A model generated the notes under the pieces. The model was given only the letters and a program-made list of their open reading frames with translations, was not told the origin of the DNA and made no database searches. DNA of 9,076 bases from JALXCG01 sp026991065 [NCBI: Gemmatimonadota bacterium] (GTDB taxonomy: Bacteria > GCA-2686955), in NCBI GenBank assembly GCA_026991065.1, contig JALXCG010000029.1, positions 1 through 9,076 of the forward strand, in the 5' to 3' direction. The position numbers were made by a program, and so were the translations under genes. This document shows, in pieces, positions 1-9,076 of this stretch; position 1 is the stretch's first letter; each line of letters opens with the position of its first letter.

Positions 1-66
1 CTGCGCTGGTGCGCACCCAGCGATACCCCAGGTCGTAGCGCGCCTGCCGGGTGCGCACCAGCGCAG
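1..66. repeat. 18-bp perfect inverted repeat
   Basis: CTGCGCTGGTGCGCACCC at 1-18 is the exact reverse complement of 49-66, with 30 bases between the arms. Each arm also contains the self-complementary decamer GGTGCGCACC. It lies inside the open body frame of the left-end secreted-protein gene, where the arms code for ALVRT and WVRTSA on the minus strand. It touches the window edge, so its full extent is unknown. Confidence 0.8.
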
Positions 67-329
67 TGTCCGGCGTGTCCTCCCCCTCCAGACAGGCCCC
101 CCACATGTTGCTGACCACGGTGCCCAGCAGGTGATGGGTGATCTGGAAGTCACTGTCTCCGTCGCGCGGCGGGTTGACGCCGAGCGGCTCGGCCGGGACC
201 GATTCAACGCCGAAGATCAGCACCAACAAGAGCAGCAGCAGCGCAAACGCACTTCCGGCTTCCGGCTTCCGGCTTCCGGCTTCCGGCTTCCGGCTTCCGG
301 CTTCCGAATCTCATGGAGTCCCGAGTCAT
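1..329 (-). CDS. Putative phase-variable secreted protein, 5' part (currently out of frame)
   Basis: Function not recognised. On the minus strand an ATG at 327-329 (second in-frame ATG at 312-314) sits 6 nt after a strong AAGGAG. It is followed by a basic stretch coded by the 7-bp repeat. From about 251 leftward a different frame is open to the window edge. It starts with a hydrophobic core (ALLLLLLVLIFG), then a likely signal-peptidase region ending VPA, then a mature part beginning EPLGVNPPRDGDSDF that contains a single Cys and a Trp-Gly-Ala-Cys segment. With seven repeats the ATG frame instead ends at 204 after 41 codons. In the signal-peptide frame a TGA lies just upstream of the repeats and no ATG follows. 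Six or nine repeats would join ATG, basic n-region and hydrophobic core into a normal Sec signal peptide. A sequencing or assembly error in the repeat is the main alternative. The 3' end lies outside the window. Confidence 0.6.
252..306. repeat. Heptanucleotide tandem repeat (7 perfect copies plus partial)
   Basis: CTTCCGG is repeated seven times without change at 252-300. A partial eighth unit, CTTCCG, follows at 301-306. On the minus strand the unit reads CCGGAAG and lies between the ATG at 329 and the hydrophobic signal-peptide core of the left-end gene. Seven is not a multiple of three, so each gain or loss of one unit changes the reading frame downstream. The unit translates in rotation as Arg-Lys-Pro-Glu-Ala-Gly-Ser, a polar, partly basic stretch compatible with a signal-peptide n-region. 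Confidence 0.95.
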
Positions 330-335
330 GTCAAG

Positions 336-341
336 CTCCTT
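336..341 (-). promoter_or_regulatory. Shine-Dalgarno deciding the start at 329
   Basis: The minus strand reads AAGGAG, then six bases, then ATG. This is a near-ideal ribosome-binding site. It shows that the ATG upstream of the 7-bp repeat is a real start, not a chance codon, even though it is out of frame with the signal peptide at the present repeat number. Confidence 0.75.
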
Positions 342-2878: not shown

Positions 2879-5101
2879 ATGAATCCCTCTCTCCTGGACC
2901 GTTTGCTGAGCCGCAAAGGGCTGTATGTCGCCTTTTGGATCGTGGGGCTCGTGATGGTGACCACACTGATTGTCTTCACCGCCAACCTGCAAAAAGAGGT
3001 CCCACCGATTCCACAAAAAGTGGTCTCCACCTCCGGACAGACCCTCTACACCTACGACGATGTGGTCAAAGGCAAGGGGCTGTTCCAGGAGTTCGACCTC
3101 ATGGACTACGGCACGCTGCTCGGCATGGGCGCCTATCTCGGCCCCGACTTTTCCACCGAGTTCTTCCACCGTCGCGCCGAGTCCCTCTATGAATCGTTCG
3201 CCCGCGCCGACTACGGCACCTCCGCCGCCCGCCTCAGCGCCGAGCAGCGCGCCGCGGTCAAGGAGCAGGTCAAGCGCGACTTCCACGCCGGCACCACACT
3301 CACCGACGGCGTGGTCACCTACTCCGACGCCTCGGCCAAGGCCTACCAGGCCAACGCCGACTACCTGGTCGACTTTCTCACCAACGGCAATCGCGAGATG
3401 GCCTGGGTCGGCGGCGTAATTCGCGCCGACGAAGCGCGCCTGATCGCCGCCTTTGTCGACTGGTCGCAGATGGTCGCTTCCTCCCTGCGCCCGGGCACCG
3501 AGCGCACCTGGAGCAACAACTGGCCGCCGGAACCCCTGGTCGATCAAAACGCCACCTGGAACACCCACTACTACACCCTCTGGGAGATGCTGGCGCTCTG
3601 GGTCGGCACCATCCTGGTCCTCTTCATCGCCTACGAAAAGCTCCTCAAGAAGGATCCGAACGAGCGCCTGGAGCAGCCGCTGGTCATCACCAAACTCTTC
3701 CCCTCCCAGCAGAAGCTCATCAAATATGTCCCGGTCGTCAGTCTCTTCTTCCTCCTCCAGGTGATCCTCGGCGGCTACCTGGCCCACATCTACACCGACC
3801 CGGTCAACAACTTCATCCTCGACCAGTCGCTCATCCCCTTCAACGTGATGCGCGCCCTCCACGTCAACCTCGCCATTCTCTGGGTGGCGATCGGCTGGCT
3901 GGTGGGCGGAATGCTCATCGCCCCCCTGGTCGGCGGTGAAGACCTCAAGTTCCCCTGGCTGGTCGACCTCCTCTGGGTCGCCCTGCTCATCGTCGGCTCC
4001 GGCGGTCTCATCGGCATCTACCTGGGCGCCACCGGCCAGATGCGCGACGTCTGGTTCTGGCTCGGCAACGAAGGCCGCGAACTCCTCAACCTCGGCCGCG
4101 TCTGGGACATCGGTCTCGTCGTCGGCCTGGTGATGTGGTTCCTCATGGTCTTCAGCGTCATCCGCAAGGCCAAAACCAACAACATCCTGGTCGGCACCAT
4201 CATCTGGAGCGCCTTCGGCATCGCCACCCTCTACATGGCGGGCATGGCCCCGGTGCACAAGATCATGCCCAACTTCACCGTCGATGACTACTATCGCTGG
4301 TGGGTGGTGCACCTCTGGGTGGAACTCACCTTCGAACTCTTCGCCGCCGGCGTCCTCGCCTTCCTCACTGTCGCGCTCGGCCTGGTCTCGCGCAAATCCG
4401 CCGAGCGGATCATGCTCTTCGAACTCGGCCTGATCATGCTCAGCGGCACCCTCGGCGTCGGTCACCACTACTGGTGGCAGGGCCTCGACGAATACTGGAT
4501 CGCCATCGGCGGCATCTTCTCCGCCCTCGAACCCCTGCCCCTCGTGCTGCTCATGATCGAGGCGGTCAAAGAGCAGCGCCACATTCGCGCCGAAGGCGGC
4601 AACTTCCCCTTCGCCGTCCCCTTCCTCTTCCTCGCCGGCAGCGCCTTCCTCAACTGGTTCGGCGCCGGCTTCCTCGGCATGGTGATCAACACCCCCACCA
4701 TCAACTACTACAGCCACGGCACCTACCTGATCATGCCCCACGGCCATGTCGCCCTGCTCGGCGCCTTCGGCTACATCTCCATCGCCTTCATCTACCTCGT
4801 GGCCCGCAGCAACGCCATGGCCAAAAACCTGGAGTGGGATGAGAAGTGGAGCAAAATCGGCTTCTGGCTGGTGACCATCGGCGTGGTCCTCTTCGCCCTC
4901 CCCACCCTGATCATCGGCTTCCAGCAAGCCCACACCGCCCATGATCTCGGCTACTGGGCCACCCGTCAGCGCGCCGCCCTCGACGGCCTGCAACCCTGGA
5001 TGTGGTCCCGCCTGCTCCCCGACGGCCTCATGATCCTCGGCGCCGCAACGATCTTCTTCGACCTCCTGAAGAAGAGCTTCTTCGCGCGCCCCGCGGCCTG
5101 A
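2879..5101 (+). CDS. norZ: Quinol-dependent nitric oxide reductase (qNor)
   Basis: This integral inner-membrane enzyme of the haem-copper oxidase superfamily reduces two NO to N2O using quinol electrons, for detoxification or denitrification. The 740-residue length and about fourteen hydrophobic segments fit single-subunit qNor. An N-terminal membrane segment (about 16-36) leads into a periplasmic region (about 37-232) that corresponds to the NorC part of cNor. There is no CxxCH and no cysteine at all in the protein, so electrons come from quinol, not a c-haem. Metal ligands are visible: His328 (low-spin haem b), His478, His529 and His530 (non-haem FeB), and His621 and His623 (haem b3 and haem b). 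Glu482, Glu486 and Glu551 match Glu211, Glu215 and Glu280 of Pseudomonas aeruginosa NorB by constant offset. The start has AAGGA upstream. It lies behind the nsrR-like gene, which probably regulates it, and a strong terminator follows 66 bp after the stop. Confidence 0.96.
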   Translation: MNPSLLDRLLSRKGLYVAFWIVGLVMVTTLIVFTANLQKEVPPIPQKVVSTSGQTLYTYDDVVKGKGLFQEFDLMDYGTLLGMGAYLGPDFSTEFFHRRAESLYESFARADYGTSAARLSAEQRAAVKEQVKRDFHAGTTLTDGVVTYSDASAKAYQANADYLVDFLTNGNREMAWVGGVIRADEARLIAAFVDWSQMVASSLRPGTERTWSNNWPPEPLVDQNATWNTHYYTLWEMLALWVGTILVLFIAYEKLLKKDPNERLEQPLVITKLFPSQQKLIKYVPVVSLFFLLQVILGGYLAHIYTDPVNNFILDQSLIPFNVMRALHVNLAILWVAIGWLVGGMLIAPLVGGEDLKFPWLVDLLWVALLIVGSGGLIGIYLGATGQMRDVWFWLGNEGRELLNLGRVWDIGLVVGLVMWFLMVFSVIRKAKTNNILVGTIIWSAFGIATLYMAGMAPVHKIMPNFTVDDYYRWWVVHLWVELTFELFAAGVLAFLTVALGLVSRKSAERIMLFELGLIMLSGTLGVGHHYWWQGLDEYWIAIGGIFSALEPLPLVLLMIEAVKEQRHIRAEGGNFPFAVPFLFLAGSAFLNWFGAGFLGMVINTPTINYYSHGTYLIMPHGHVALLGAFGYISIAFIYLVARSNAMAKNLEWDEKWSKIGFWLVTIGVVLFALPTLIIGFQQAHTAHDLGYWATRQRAALDGLQPWMWSRLLPDGLMILGAATIFFDLLKKSFFARPAA

Positions 5102-7155: not shown

Positions 7156-9076
7156 TTACGGCAGCGGCGCCTCAATCACATGGCGCTCCGTTACGTTGAA
7201 GCTGAAGACACCGTAGTCGGGCGCACCCACCGGATGGGAACCGGCGTTGGGCTCCTGCCACATATCCTCAGCCCGGTAGTAGTACTCCACCAGCGAGCCC
7301 GCCGGCTGTCCCGGAATCTGCCCGCTCACCCAGTCGTTGCCGATCGGAGTCAGCGCCACCTCCTGCCAGGCGCCTCCATCCACGCGATAAAACACCGAGG
7401 CCCAACCGATGCCGTAGTCGTCGGCGAGCTGCGCCCCCACGGTGTAGCTGCCACGCGCCGGCCCACTGGGGATCTCGATCGCATCGACAAAATAGGGCGG
7501 CTCGATATCGTCTGGAGTGGTCACCTTGAGGTCATCGACCCACCACTTGGCCCAATTGACGAAGAAGCGGTCGGCGGTGATACCGAAGCGGACCCGCAAC
7601 GCGCCATCCCCGACATTGGGAAGTTCGATCTCCTGCGGTGACCACGGACGATAGAGCGGATCCGACATCCAGTCAAAAACCCAGCCGCGTTTCCAGGTGG
7701 CGCCGTTATCCACCGAGACATCGACCCGCATGTCGGTGAAAAGCTCCTCCTGCAGGTTGTAGGCGTGCCAGAAAGCGAGGGTTGCGGTATTGAAGCCCGA
7801 CAGATCGATCGGATCGCGCAGCGTGACATACTCCCAACTGTTGGTCGGACCGCCACTGAACATGGCGTGAGTGGGCGAGTGGGAAGATTGCGTGGAAAGG
7901 TCCCAGTTCTGCTCCGTGTTCCAGAGCAGGTCGAAGGAGTCCGGGTCCGCATACTCCAGTTGGTCCAGGTGCAGCAGCACCGGCGGTGGCGGCGAGCCGA
8001 CCGTGAAGCGCAGCGGCACCACCTGGTCGAAGTCGACGCTGTCGCCATCGGCGTGAACCGCCAGGCCCAGCTCCACACTGTGACCACCGGGCGTCAGGTC
8101 GTGCGCCCAGATGCGGATCGGGGAGTCGAGATTGTTCCCACTCTCCTCGGGGGCCAGGTCTCCGTAGTCGGAGAGCGCCGCATCCACAGTCAGGTAGTTG
8201 TCGTGAGAGTCCGCCACGATCCGGGTGTTGTAAGCGGTTTGGCCACCGATATTCTTCAACTCCACCAGAACCGACGCGCTTTCCCCGGCGTCCAACTTGC
8301 CATCACCATTGCCGCCGGGCGGAGAATCGTCGAGCTGGGTCTGCACCACGCGCACCCAGGGGGCATTCAGCGGCGCGGTGGATTCGAGCGCCGACCACAC
8401 GTCCAGACGGCCCCAACCGTAGTCATTGTTGGGGTAGGGGTCGCCCGCGGGCGGTTGCACCGAACTGTCGAGCAGAATGTCATAGAGGAGATCGGGAGTG
8501 AGAGTCGGGTTTTTCTCGCAAAGCAGCGCCACCGCACCGGCCATGTGCGGCGTGGCCATGGAGGTGCCGCTCCAGGTGTCGTAGCGGTTGTTGGGCAGGC
8601 AGGAGCGTACATTCTCGCCCGGAGCGGAGAGATCCGGCTTGATCAGATTCCAATCGGGACGGAACCAGGTACTCGGGTCGTTCCAGGGGTTTCGGTTGGG
8701 GGCCGGCCCGCGCGAGGACCAGGAGGAGATCAGGTCCCGGGAGTTGGTCGACCCAACGCCGAGAACCACCGAGTAGTTGCCCGGCGTTCCGGCCGAACCG
8801 GTGCCCGGCCCCTCGTTGCCGTTGGCGCAGACGGGCAGGATGTCGATGGTGAGATAGGTGGCGAAAACATCCCAGAAGGAGGTGCTGGTGCGGTCGGTCG
8901 AGCCCCAGGAGTTGGAGCAGACCCGCACATCCACCTCCGGCTTGAGCCCGCCGATAAACTCCAGCCCCTGAATGATCTGGTGGTCATAGCCGGAACCGCC
9001 GGAATCGAGCACCTTGGCGGTGACGAACTTGGCTCCCGGTGCCACACCGATGTCGTTGCCGAAGGGCCCCAGGCCG
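7156..9076 (-). CDS. Subtilisin-like (S8) exported serine protease, 5'-truncated by window edge
   Basis: About 639 C-terminal residues are visible; the frame is still open at the window edge and the catalytic Asp and His lie outside. Residue numbers here count from the GTG at 9043-9045, which is an internal codon (preceded by GLGPFGNDIG), not the true start. The protease core shows GVAPGAKFVTAKVLD, the oxyanion Asn77 in CANGNEGPG, SSRGP (110-114), DLSAPGENV, and the catalytic Ser162 in SGTSMATPHMAG. A beta domain at about 228-350 contains NGDGKLDAGES and resembles CARDB-like adhesion or spacer domains. A jelly-roll, MAM-like segment spans about 358-510 (WDLSTQSSHSPTHAM through WWVDDLKV). A final beta domain spans about 515-620 (YRVDGGAWQ, LVEYYYRAED) with the tail ending APLP. 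No C-terminal FlgD-type or PEP-CTERM sorting signal is present. Likely role: extracellular protein degradation or processing. Family certain, domain names for the C-terminal part tentative. Confidence 0.93.
   Translation of the reverse strand, partial: GLGPFGNDIGVAPGAKFVTAKVLDSGGSGYDHQIIQGLEFIGGLKPEVDVRVCSNSWGSTDRTSTSFWDVFATYLTIDILPVCANGNEGPGTGSAGTPGNYSVVLGVGSTNSRDLISSWSSRGPAPNRNPWNDPSTWFRPDWNLIKPDLSAPGENVRSCLPNNRYDTWSGTSMATPHMAGAVALLCEKNPTLTPDLLYDILLDSSVQPPAGDPYPNNDYGWGRLDVWSALESTAPLNAPWVRVVQTQLDDSPPGGNGDGKLDAGESASVLVELKNIGGQTAYNTRIVADSHDNYLTVDAALSDYGDLAPEESGNNLDSPIRIWAHDLTPGGHSVELGLAVHADGDSVDFDQVVPLRFTVGSPPPPVLLHLDQLEYADPDSFDLLWNTEQNWDLSTQSSHSPTHAMFSGGPTNSWEYVTLRDPIDLSGFNTATLAFWHAYNLQEELFTDMRVDVSVDNGATWKRGWVFDWMSDPLYRPWSPQEIELPNVGDGALRVRFGITADRFFVNWAKWWVDDLKVTTPDDIEPPYFVDAIEIPSGPARGSYTVGAQLADDYGIGWASVFYRVDGGAWQEVALTPIGNDWVSGQIPGQPAGSLVEYYYRAEDMWQEPNAGSHPVGAPDYGVFSFNVTERHVIEAPLP

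Follow-up and report, generated by a model that had tools for sequence, protein, structure and literature searches.

A tandem array of CCGGAAG heptamers in the first codons of a putative secreted-protein gene is probably a slipped-strand contingency locus, in which the number of repeat units would decide whether an exported protein is made. The array lies near one end of the 9,076-bp stretch of DNA analysed here (the window), which is a whole contig (G000:C29) of a 4.14-Mb genome assembled in 902 contigs and 83.8% complete (G000). Relatives of the gene keep a frame-changing tract at the same place but differ in the repeat itself, and an unrelated family of secreted proteins carries such arrays in its signal peptides as well.

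Reading frames of the window locus

All features of the locus lie on the minus strand. The array (252..306; period 7, 7.9 copies, 100% match by TRF) consists of seven full units at 300..252 and six matching bases upstream, and is thus a tandem repeat in the 5' coding region with a unit not divisible by three. A Shine-Dalgarno sequence, AAGGAG (336..341), is separated by a 6-nt spacer from an ATG at 329 (327..329), and MTRDSMRFGS is encoded between this ATG and the seven units; a second in-frame ATG is found at 314..312. From the ATG at 329 the frame crosses the repeats and stops after 41 amino acids (204..329). The signal-peptide core ALLLLLLVLIFGVESVPA (191..244), recognized by eye and by hydropathy rather than with a predictor, is encoded in a different frame and leads into the presumed mature protein, of which 63 codons (2..190) are present before the contig ends; we take cleavage to occur after the motif VPA. 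The signal-peptide frame has its own TGA (311..313) directly ahead of the repeats and no ATG, GTG or TTG between this stop and the core, while the third frame meets a TGA within the core (219..217).

A preliminary description, made from the letters alone, had proposed most of this arrangement. Its seven perfect repeats between the Shine-Dalgarno/ATG pair and an out-of-frame core, its stop at codon 41, the TGA reached in the core in the remaining phase and the signal-peptide frame closed ahead of the repeats were all found again, the lack of a later start in that frame extending from ATG to GTG and TTG. The 'long open body' it spoke of is indeed an open frame, but one of only 81 codons from the core on, because the window, being a whole contig, ends inside the gene.

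Simulation of 0-10 copies, with both ATGs tested, confirmed that only multiples of three (0, 3, 6 and 9) link the ATG to the body, and all other copy numbers stop at 20-48 amino acids. Even with zero full units an ordinary signal peptide remains at the N-terminus. Upstream, the ATG frame continues open as far as an ATG at 452, and a strong Shine-Dalgarno sequence was seen, as judged by eye, at the ATG at 329 only. The locus fits a natural start at 329 and an array that arose as an expansion inside the signal peptide.

Paralogues in the source genome

A search with the 81-residue fragment encoded in the window returned two paralogues in the same genome, on contigs C135 (58% identity) and C847 (60%). 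The C135 gene, with a frame open over 1013 codons, carries an array of another heptamer, TCACGGG (ten full units, 10.9 by the array finder), in the same place as CCGGAAG in the window gene, and GAGG stands five bases ahead of its ATG. At ten units this gene is OFF, its ATG being out of frame with the signal peptide; among the 0-13 units simulated it is ON at 0, 3, 6, 9 and 12, and loss of a single unit would turn it ON. Here too, the signal-peptide frame offers no ATG, GTG or TTG from its stop to the core. The C847 gene is open over 991 codons, and its contig begins at the signal peptide, so that any upstream start would lie outside the contig. With every full unit deleted, the ATG is back in frame with the signal peptide in both the window gene and C135, as growth of the array inside an ordinary signal peptide would predict. 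The preliminary description had looked to relatives for conservation of the repeat and its start: the position of the repeat and the Shine-Dalgarno/ATG pair are kept in C135, but the unit differs, and the homologues of the sister genus have poly-C instead.

Over 960 codons, C135 and C847 differ by a dN of 0.37 and a dS of 1.15, and the window fragment gives dN/dS values of 0.37/1.79 against C135 (76 codons) and 0.32/0.74 against C847 (71 codons). Values of dN well below dS suggest constraint on the body, as long-term averages that do not prove each copy to be functional today.

The roughly 1000-residue family found no curated match above the Pfam cut-off (one weak row, for the C234 homologue described below), no NCBIfam match and no PDB match by sequence. 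Structure models of the body built from four sequences reached pLDDT values of 33.8 and 31.3 and were unusable. Its NEP and DE motifs are reminiscent of clan-A glycoside hydrolases, a likeness that we take as a lead only. A profile search of 386 genomes recovered the family in the two members of the phylum, together with two weak partial matches, and a scan of genome contigs returned only those of ARS67.

Homologues in the sister genus

The phylum was sampled through two genomes only, the source genome and that of isolate ARS67, from the sister genus (G001). In G001, four homologues could be read at the N-terminus; instead of a heptamer, each has a run of 7-8 C inside the signal-peptide core. 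The C9 gene is ON at 8 C. The C87 gene is OFF at 7 C. The contig of C234 does not reach the start of its gene, which in the core frame is OFF at 8 C. Both genes are ON at 6, 9 and 12 among the tract lengths of 5-12 tested. The fourth, on C2, is off at every length from 5 to 12. This homologue (L019 2214-2986, minus strand) has its frame broken more than once at the start, lacks a middle part, and looks decayed.

Long single-base runs are common in this genome (23 runs of at least eight of one base in 299 kb), so the poly-C tracts are weaker evidence than the heptamers, supporting rather than strong. A scan for gene starts broken by homopolymers listed 22 cases in G001 and 3 in G000, and not one of them is signal-peptide-like (best hydropathy 1.2); it did not recover the known poly-C genes, we think because frames with GTG or TTG upstream were excluded.

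A second secreted family

Two further arrays were found at signal peptides in G001. In the exported protein encoded on C21 it is TCTCGCC (3.6 copies, three full units), and on C62 it is the 13-mer CTCAGCCTCTCCG (5.5 copies, five full units). The C21 gene is OFF and would be ON at 1 and 4 of the 0-6 copies simulated; the C62 gene is OFF from its ATG and would be ON at 1, 4 and 7 of 0-8. Unlike the window gene and C135, neither is ON with zero full units. In C62 a GTG in the body frame lies four bases past the ATG and might permit expression in the present state. The two proteins are paralogous, and their family is unrelated to that of the window gene and C135: the right-handed beta helix of Pfam is matched above the cut-off by the proteins of C62 and of a third paralogue, C55, and below it by that of C21. 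C55 is without an array and in frame. The 13-mer of C62 was seen first through the homologue of the C21 protein and afterwards in the wider repeat scan.

The arrays begin 29 nt past the first base of the ATG in the window gene, 22 nt in C135, 14 nt in C21 and 10 nt in C62, and they reach the core. In all four the repeat falls within the predicted signal-peptide segment, again assigned by eye and hydropathy without a predictor.

Distribution of repeat arrays

The survey covered 1,306,416 readable bases in 84 G001 and 63 G000 contigs. The G001 sample (1.108 Mb, about 26%) comprised 79 contigs taken by number and five added for a homology hit (C2, C9, C87, C205 and C234), each cut at 20 kb; the G000 sample (198,168 readable bases, about 5%) comprised 60 contigs taken by number (253,790 bases, 75,830 of them N) plus C135, C847 and the window. 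Arrays had to be perfect, with a unit of 7-60 nt and at least 3 copies for units below 9 nt or at least 2.3 copies from 9 nt on, the range of 7-60 having been chosen after the heptamers had been seen. Nine such arrays were found. Five have a unit of 9 or 12 and lie each in a stop-to-stop frame of at least 150 codons. The other four, whose units are not multiples of three, are all at signal peptides (window, C135, C21 and C62), and these four are not independent, since the window was given, C135 was reached through homology, and C21 and C62 belong to one family.

Shorter units were kept outside this tally: 26 arrays of unit 4, at places mostly unchecked, and one of unit 5 (CCCCG, 3.0 copies, inside a frame and away from a signal peptide), with at least 3 copies and lengths of 12-18 nt where listed. 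On G000:C30 (L083 6517-6561) the hexamer GGAGCG is repeated 7.5 times inside a 648-codon ORF; its unit is divisible by three and so alters length, not frame. The start of this ORF resembles that of DNA polymerase III gamma/tau.

In a scan blind to repeats, 118 of 629 long ORFs have an N-terminal core, and six of these lack an in-frame start ahead of it; two of the six are signal-peptide-like by eye, C135 and C21, both with heptamers. The scan ran without C62 and without the window gene, which has fewer than 200 codons there.

The 60 G000 contigs taken by number (178 kb readable) contain none, and no period-7 array of at least 3 copies arose in 10 Mb of simulated sequence (Markov-1, composition of the G001 sample). 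The window array is not a product of chance. A pattern search of G000 for other CCGGAAG tracts, which the preliminary description had suggested for gene starts, returned no further CCGGAAGCCGGAAG, and no tandem CCGGAAG or TCACGGG elsewhere in that genome; in G001, three tandem units of either were likewise absent. A further heptamer array, CCGCTCT x5 (G001:C256:11071-11105), surfaced in the reversed-pattern control of the TCTCGCC search and is known by position alone. Each of the four heptamer units was found at one place only in the two genomes together, three of these places being 5' coding and the fourth the C256 array. A switch of this kind had been expected to use repeats that are not scattered over the genome, and this held for the portion covered here (about 26% of G001 and 5% of G000).

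Discussion

In the mechanism that we favour, replication slippage would add or remove one repeat unit at a time. As 7 and 13 both equal 1 modulo 3, each such step shifts the frame. One copy number in three would put the ATG in frame with the signal peptide and with an exported body, of about 1000 residues in the paralogues, and the other copy numbers would yield a peptide of about 40 residues. In the assembly the window gene reads OFF at its 7 copies, and 6 or 9 would turn it ON. Copy number presumably changes in living cells, translation would proceed in the frame of the ATG, and variation of the secreted proteins may be what selection acts on. The comparison with relatives lends support to the ON/OFF phase variation proposed in the preliminary description: a frame-changing repeat recurs in them at this position, and the body of C135 is open.

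A different account would see in these arrays neutral microsatellites that grew in already dispensable genes, so that the genes are frameshifted pseudogenes. The assembled states seem to speak for it, as six of the seven tract loci whose downstream frame is open as far as the sequence reaches read OFF, C9 alone being ON; the eighth locus, the decayed-looking homologue on G001:C2, stands outside this tally and also points that way. Yet if a single phase of the three is ON, some two thirds of loci would be OFF anyway, and neuO is reported OFF in 42 of 64 genomes (PMC13001214). Decay is also hard to reconcile with frames that stay open over some 500 to 1000 codons in C135, C847, C234, C21 and C62, with the placement at signal peptides of all four frame-changing arrays of unit 7-60 in 1.31 Mb, or with a dN between paralogues that is, as a long-term average, well below dS. 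We therefore consider this account unlikely.

Less probable still is that the genes are always made, either because the assembled copy number is wrong or because a start codon in the signal-peptide frame was overlooked. The consensus of a metagenome-assembled genome may, as is generally appreciated, settle on a wrong repeat length, and C62 has its in-frame GTG beside the ATG. However, the G000 arrays (55 and 76 bp) would fit within a typical short read, two separate arrays in that genome would have to be miscounted, and the signal-peptide frames of both the window gene and C135 are without any of the three start codons between stop and core. That the array acts as a structure in DNA or RNA, for instance as a G-quadruplex-type dispersed heptamer like GGGNATC, seems to us scarcely credible. 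Certain bacteria do contain G-rich heptamer repeats in abundance (PMC4692102) and the TCACGGG units contain GGG, but CCGGAAG has no GGG run, the four arrays inspected all lie in 5' coding regions, and GGGNATC is described as repeated genome-wide with a non-coding excess (PMC4692102), whereas here each unit has one place.

The slipped-strand reading remains the one we prefer, and it leads to a broader and more tentative proposal. One family uses CCGGAAG, TCACGGG or poly-C and the other TCTCGCC or the 13-mer. Different units in homologues, and in two unrelated secreted families, suggest repeated origin of the same switch. We lean, by a little, towards the view that a small, uncultured-looking phylum keeps an ON/OFF repertoire of secreted proteins in which the position of the switch is conserved while the repeat is replaced over evolution. 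If so, selection would favour the presence of a slippery tract at the signal peptide, whatever its sequence, and stochastic secretion would be a lifestyle not confined to the known pathogens. Gene callers may also miss or mis-start such genes, because the assembled state is mostly OFF.

Repeat-driven phase variation has been described mainly in host-associated pathogens. The Opa family of Neisseria shares one repeat unit, whereas the homologues described here have units of their own. The CTCTT repeats of the opa (P.II) genes lie in the part encoding the signal peptide, and their copy number sets whether a surface protein is correctly or incorrectly translated (PMC3899988). The window locus is alike in having a repeat of non-triplet unit inside the signal-peptide segment, and differs in that Opa uses a pentamer in a pathogen, as against the 7- and 13-bp units found here. 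The neuO product of Escherichia coli K1 is not known to be exported. neuO is a capsule O-acetyltransferase gene carried as cargo by phage CUS-3, with an AAGACTC heptamer in its 5' coding region and a full product only if the copy number is divisible by 3 (PMC13001214); the switch also appears in PMC9659370. The window gene, compared with it by description only, shares the 5' coding heptamer and the multiple-of-three rule, but is predicted to encode an exported protein rather than a phage-borne capsule enzyme.

Haemophilus influenzae has several heptamers proposed as phase-variation tracts, for example at hmw1A/hmw2A, and the unit length at the same genes differs among strains (PMC2651432), so that both heptamer tracts and changes of unit at the same genes have a parallel there. 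The hmw repeats lie upstream in the promoter, with one tract inside an ORF and, in the part of that source available, none described in a signal peptide (PMC2651432). Heptameric tandem repeats are also seen as GGGNATC in Xanthomonas and Nostoc, dispersed over the genome and over-represented in non-coding regions (PMC4692102), and as many intergenic TAACTGA repeats in marine Beggiatoaceae (PMC4679880), the latter being environmental bacteria. Those are dispersed and mostly intergenic, whereas ours are single-locus and at a coding start, and the present arrays are not of the class of dispersed G-rich heptamers with the same unit at many, mostly non-coding loci. Given neuO, H. influenzae and the marine Beggiatoaceae, a heptamer is less unusual than the preliminary description had held. 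The present case stands apart in its organism, in having units of 7 and 13 bp within signal peptides, and in homologues that retain the position but not the repeat, the last of these being the new part. The limited open literature searched yielded few reports of phase variation by repeats in bacteria from metagenomes or the environment, which is no proof of absence.

Other genes of the window

On the plus strand, the frames at 509-730 and 690-1040 overlap and have the appearance of a single gene whose frame is broken; its second half resembles the C-terminal part of AAA-ATPase/nuclease-like proteins, and 690-1037 gave no Pfam match. A 740-residue frame (2879-5101, plus strand) matches COX1 and NorB cytochrome c-like domains of the nitric oxide reductase type, and it is adjoined by a gene for an Rrf2-family regulator (2315-2731). 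At the other contig end, a Subtilase-family gene (7156-9075, minus strand) is truncated.
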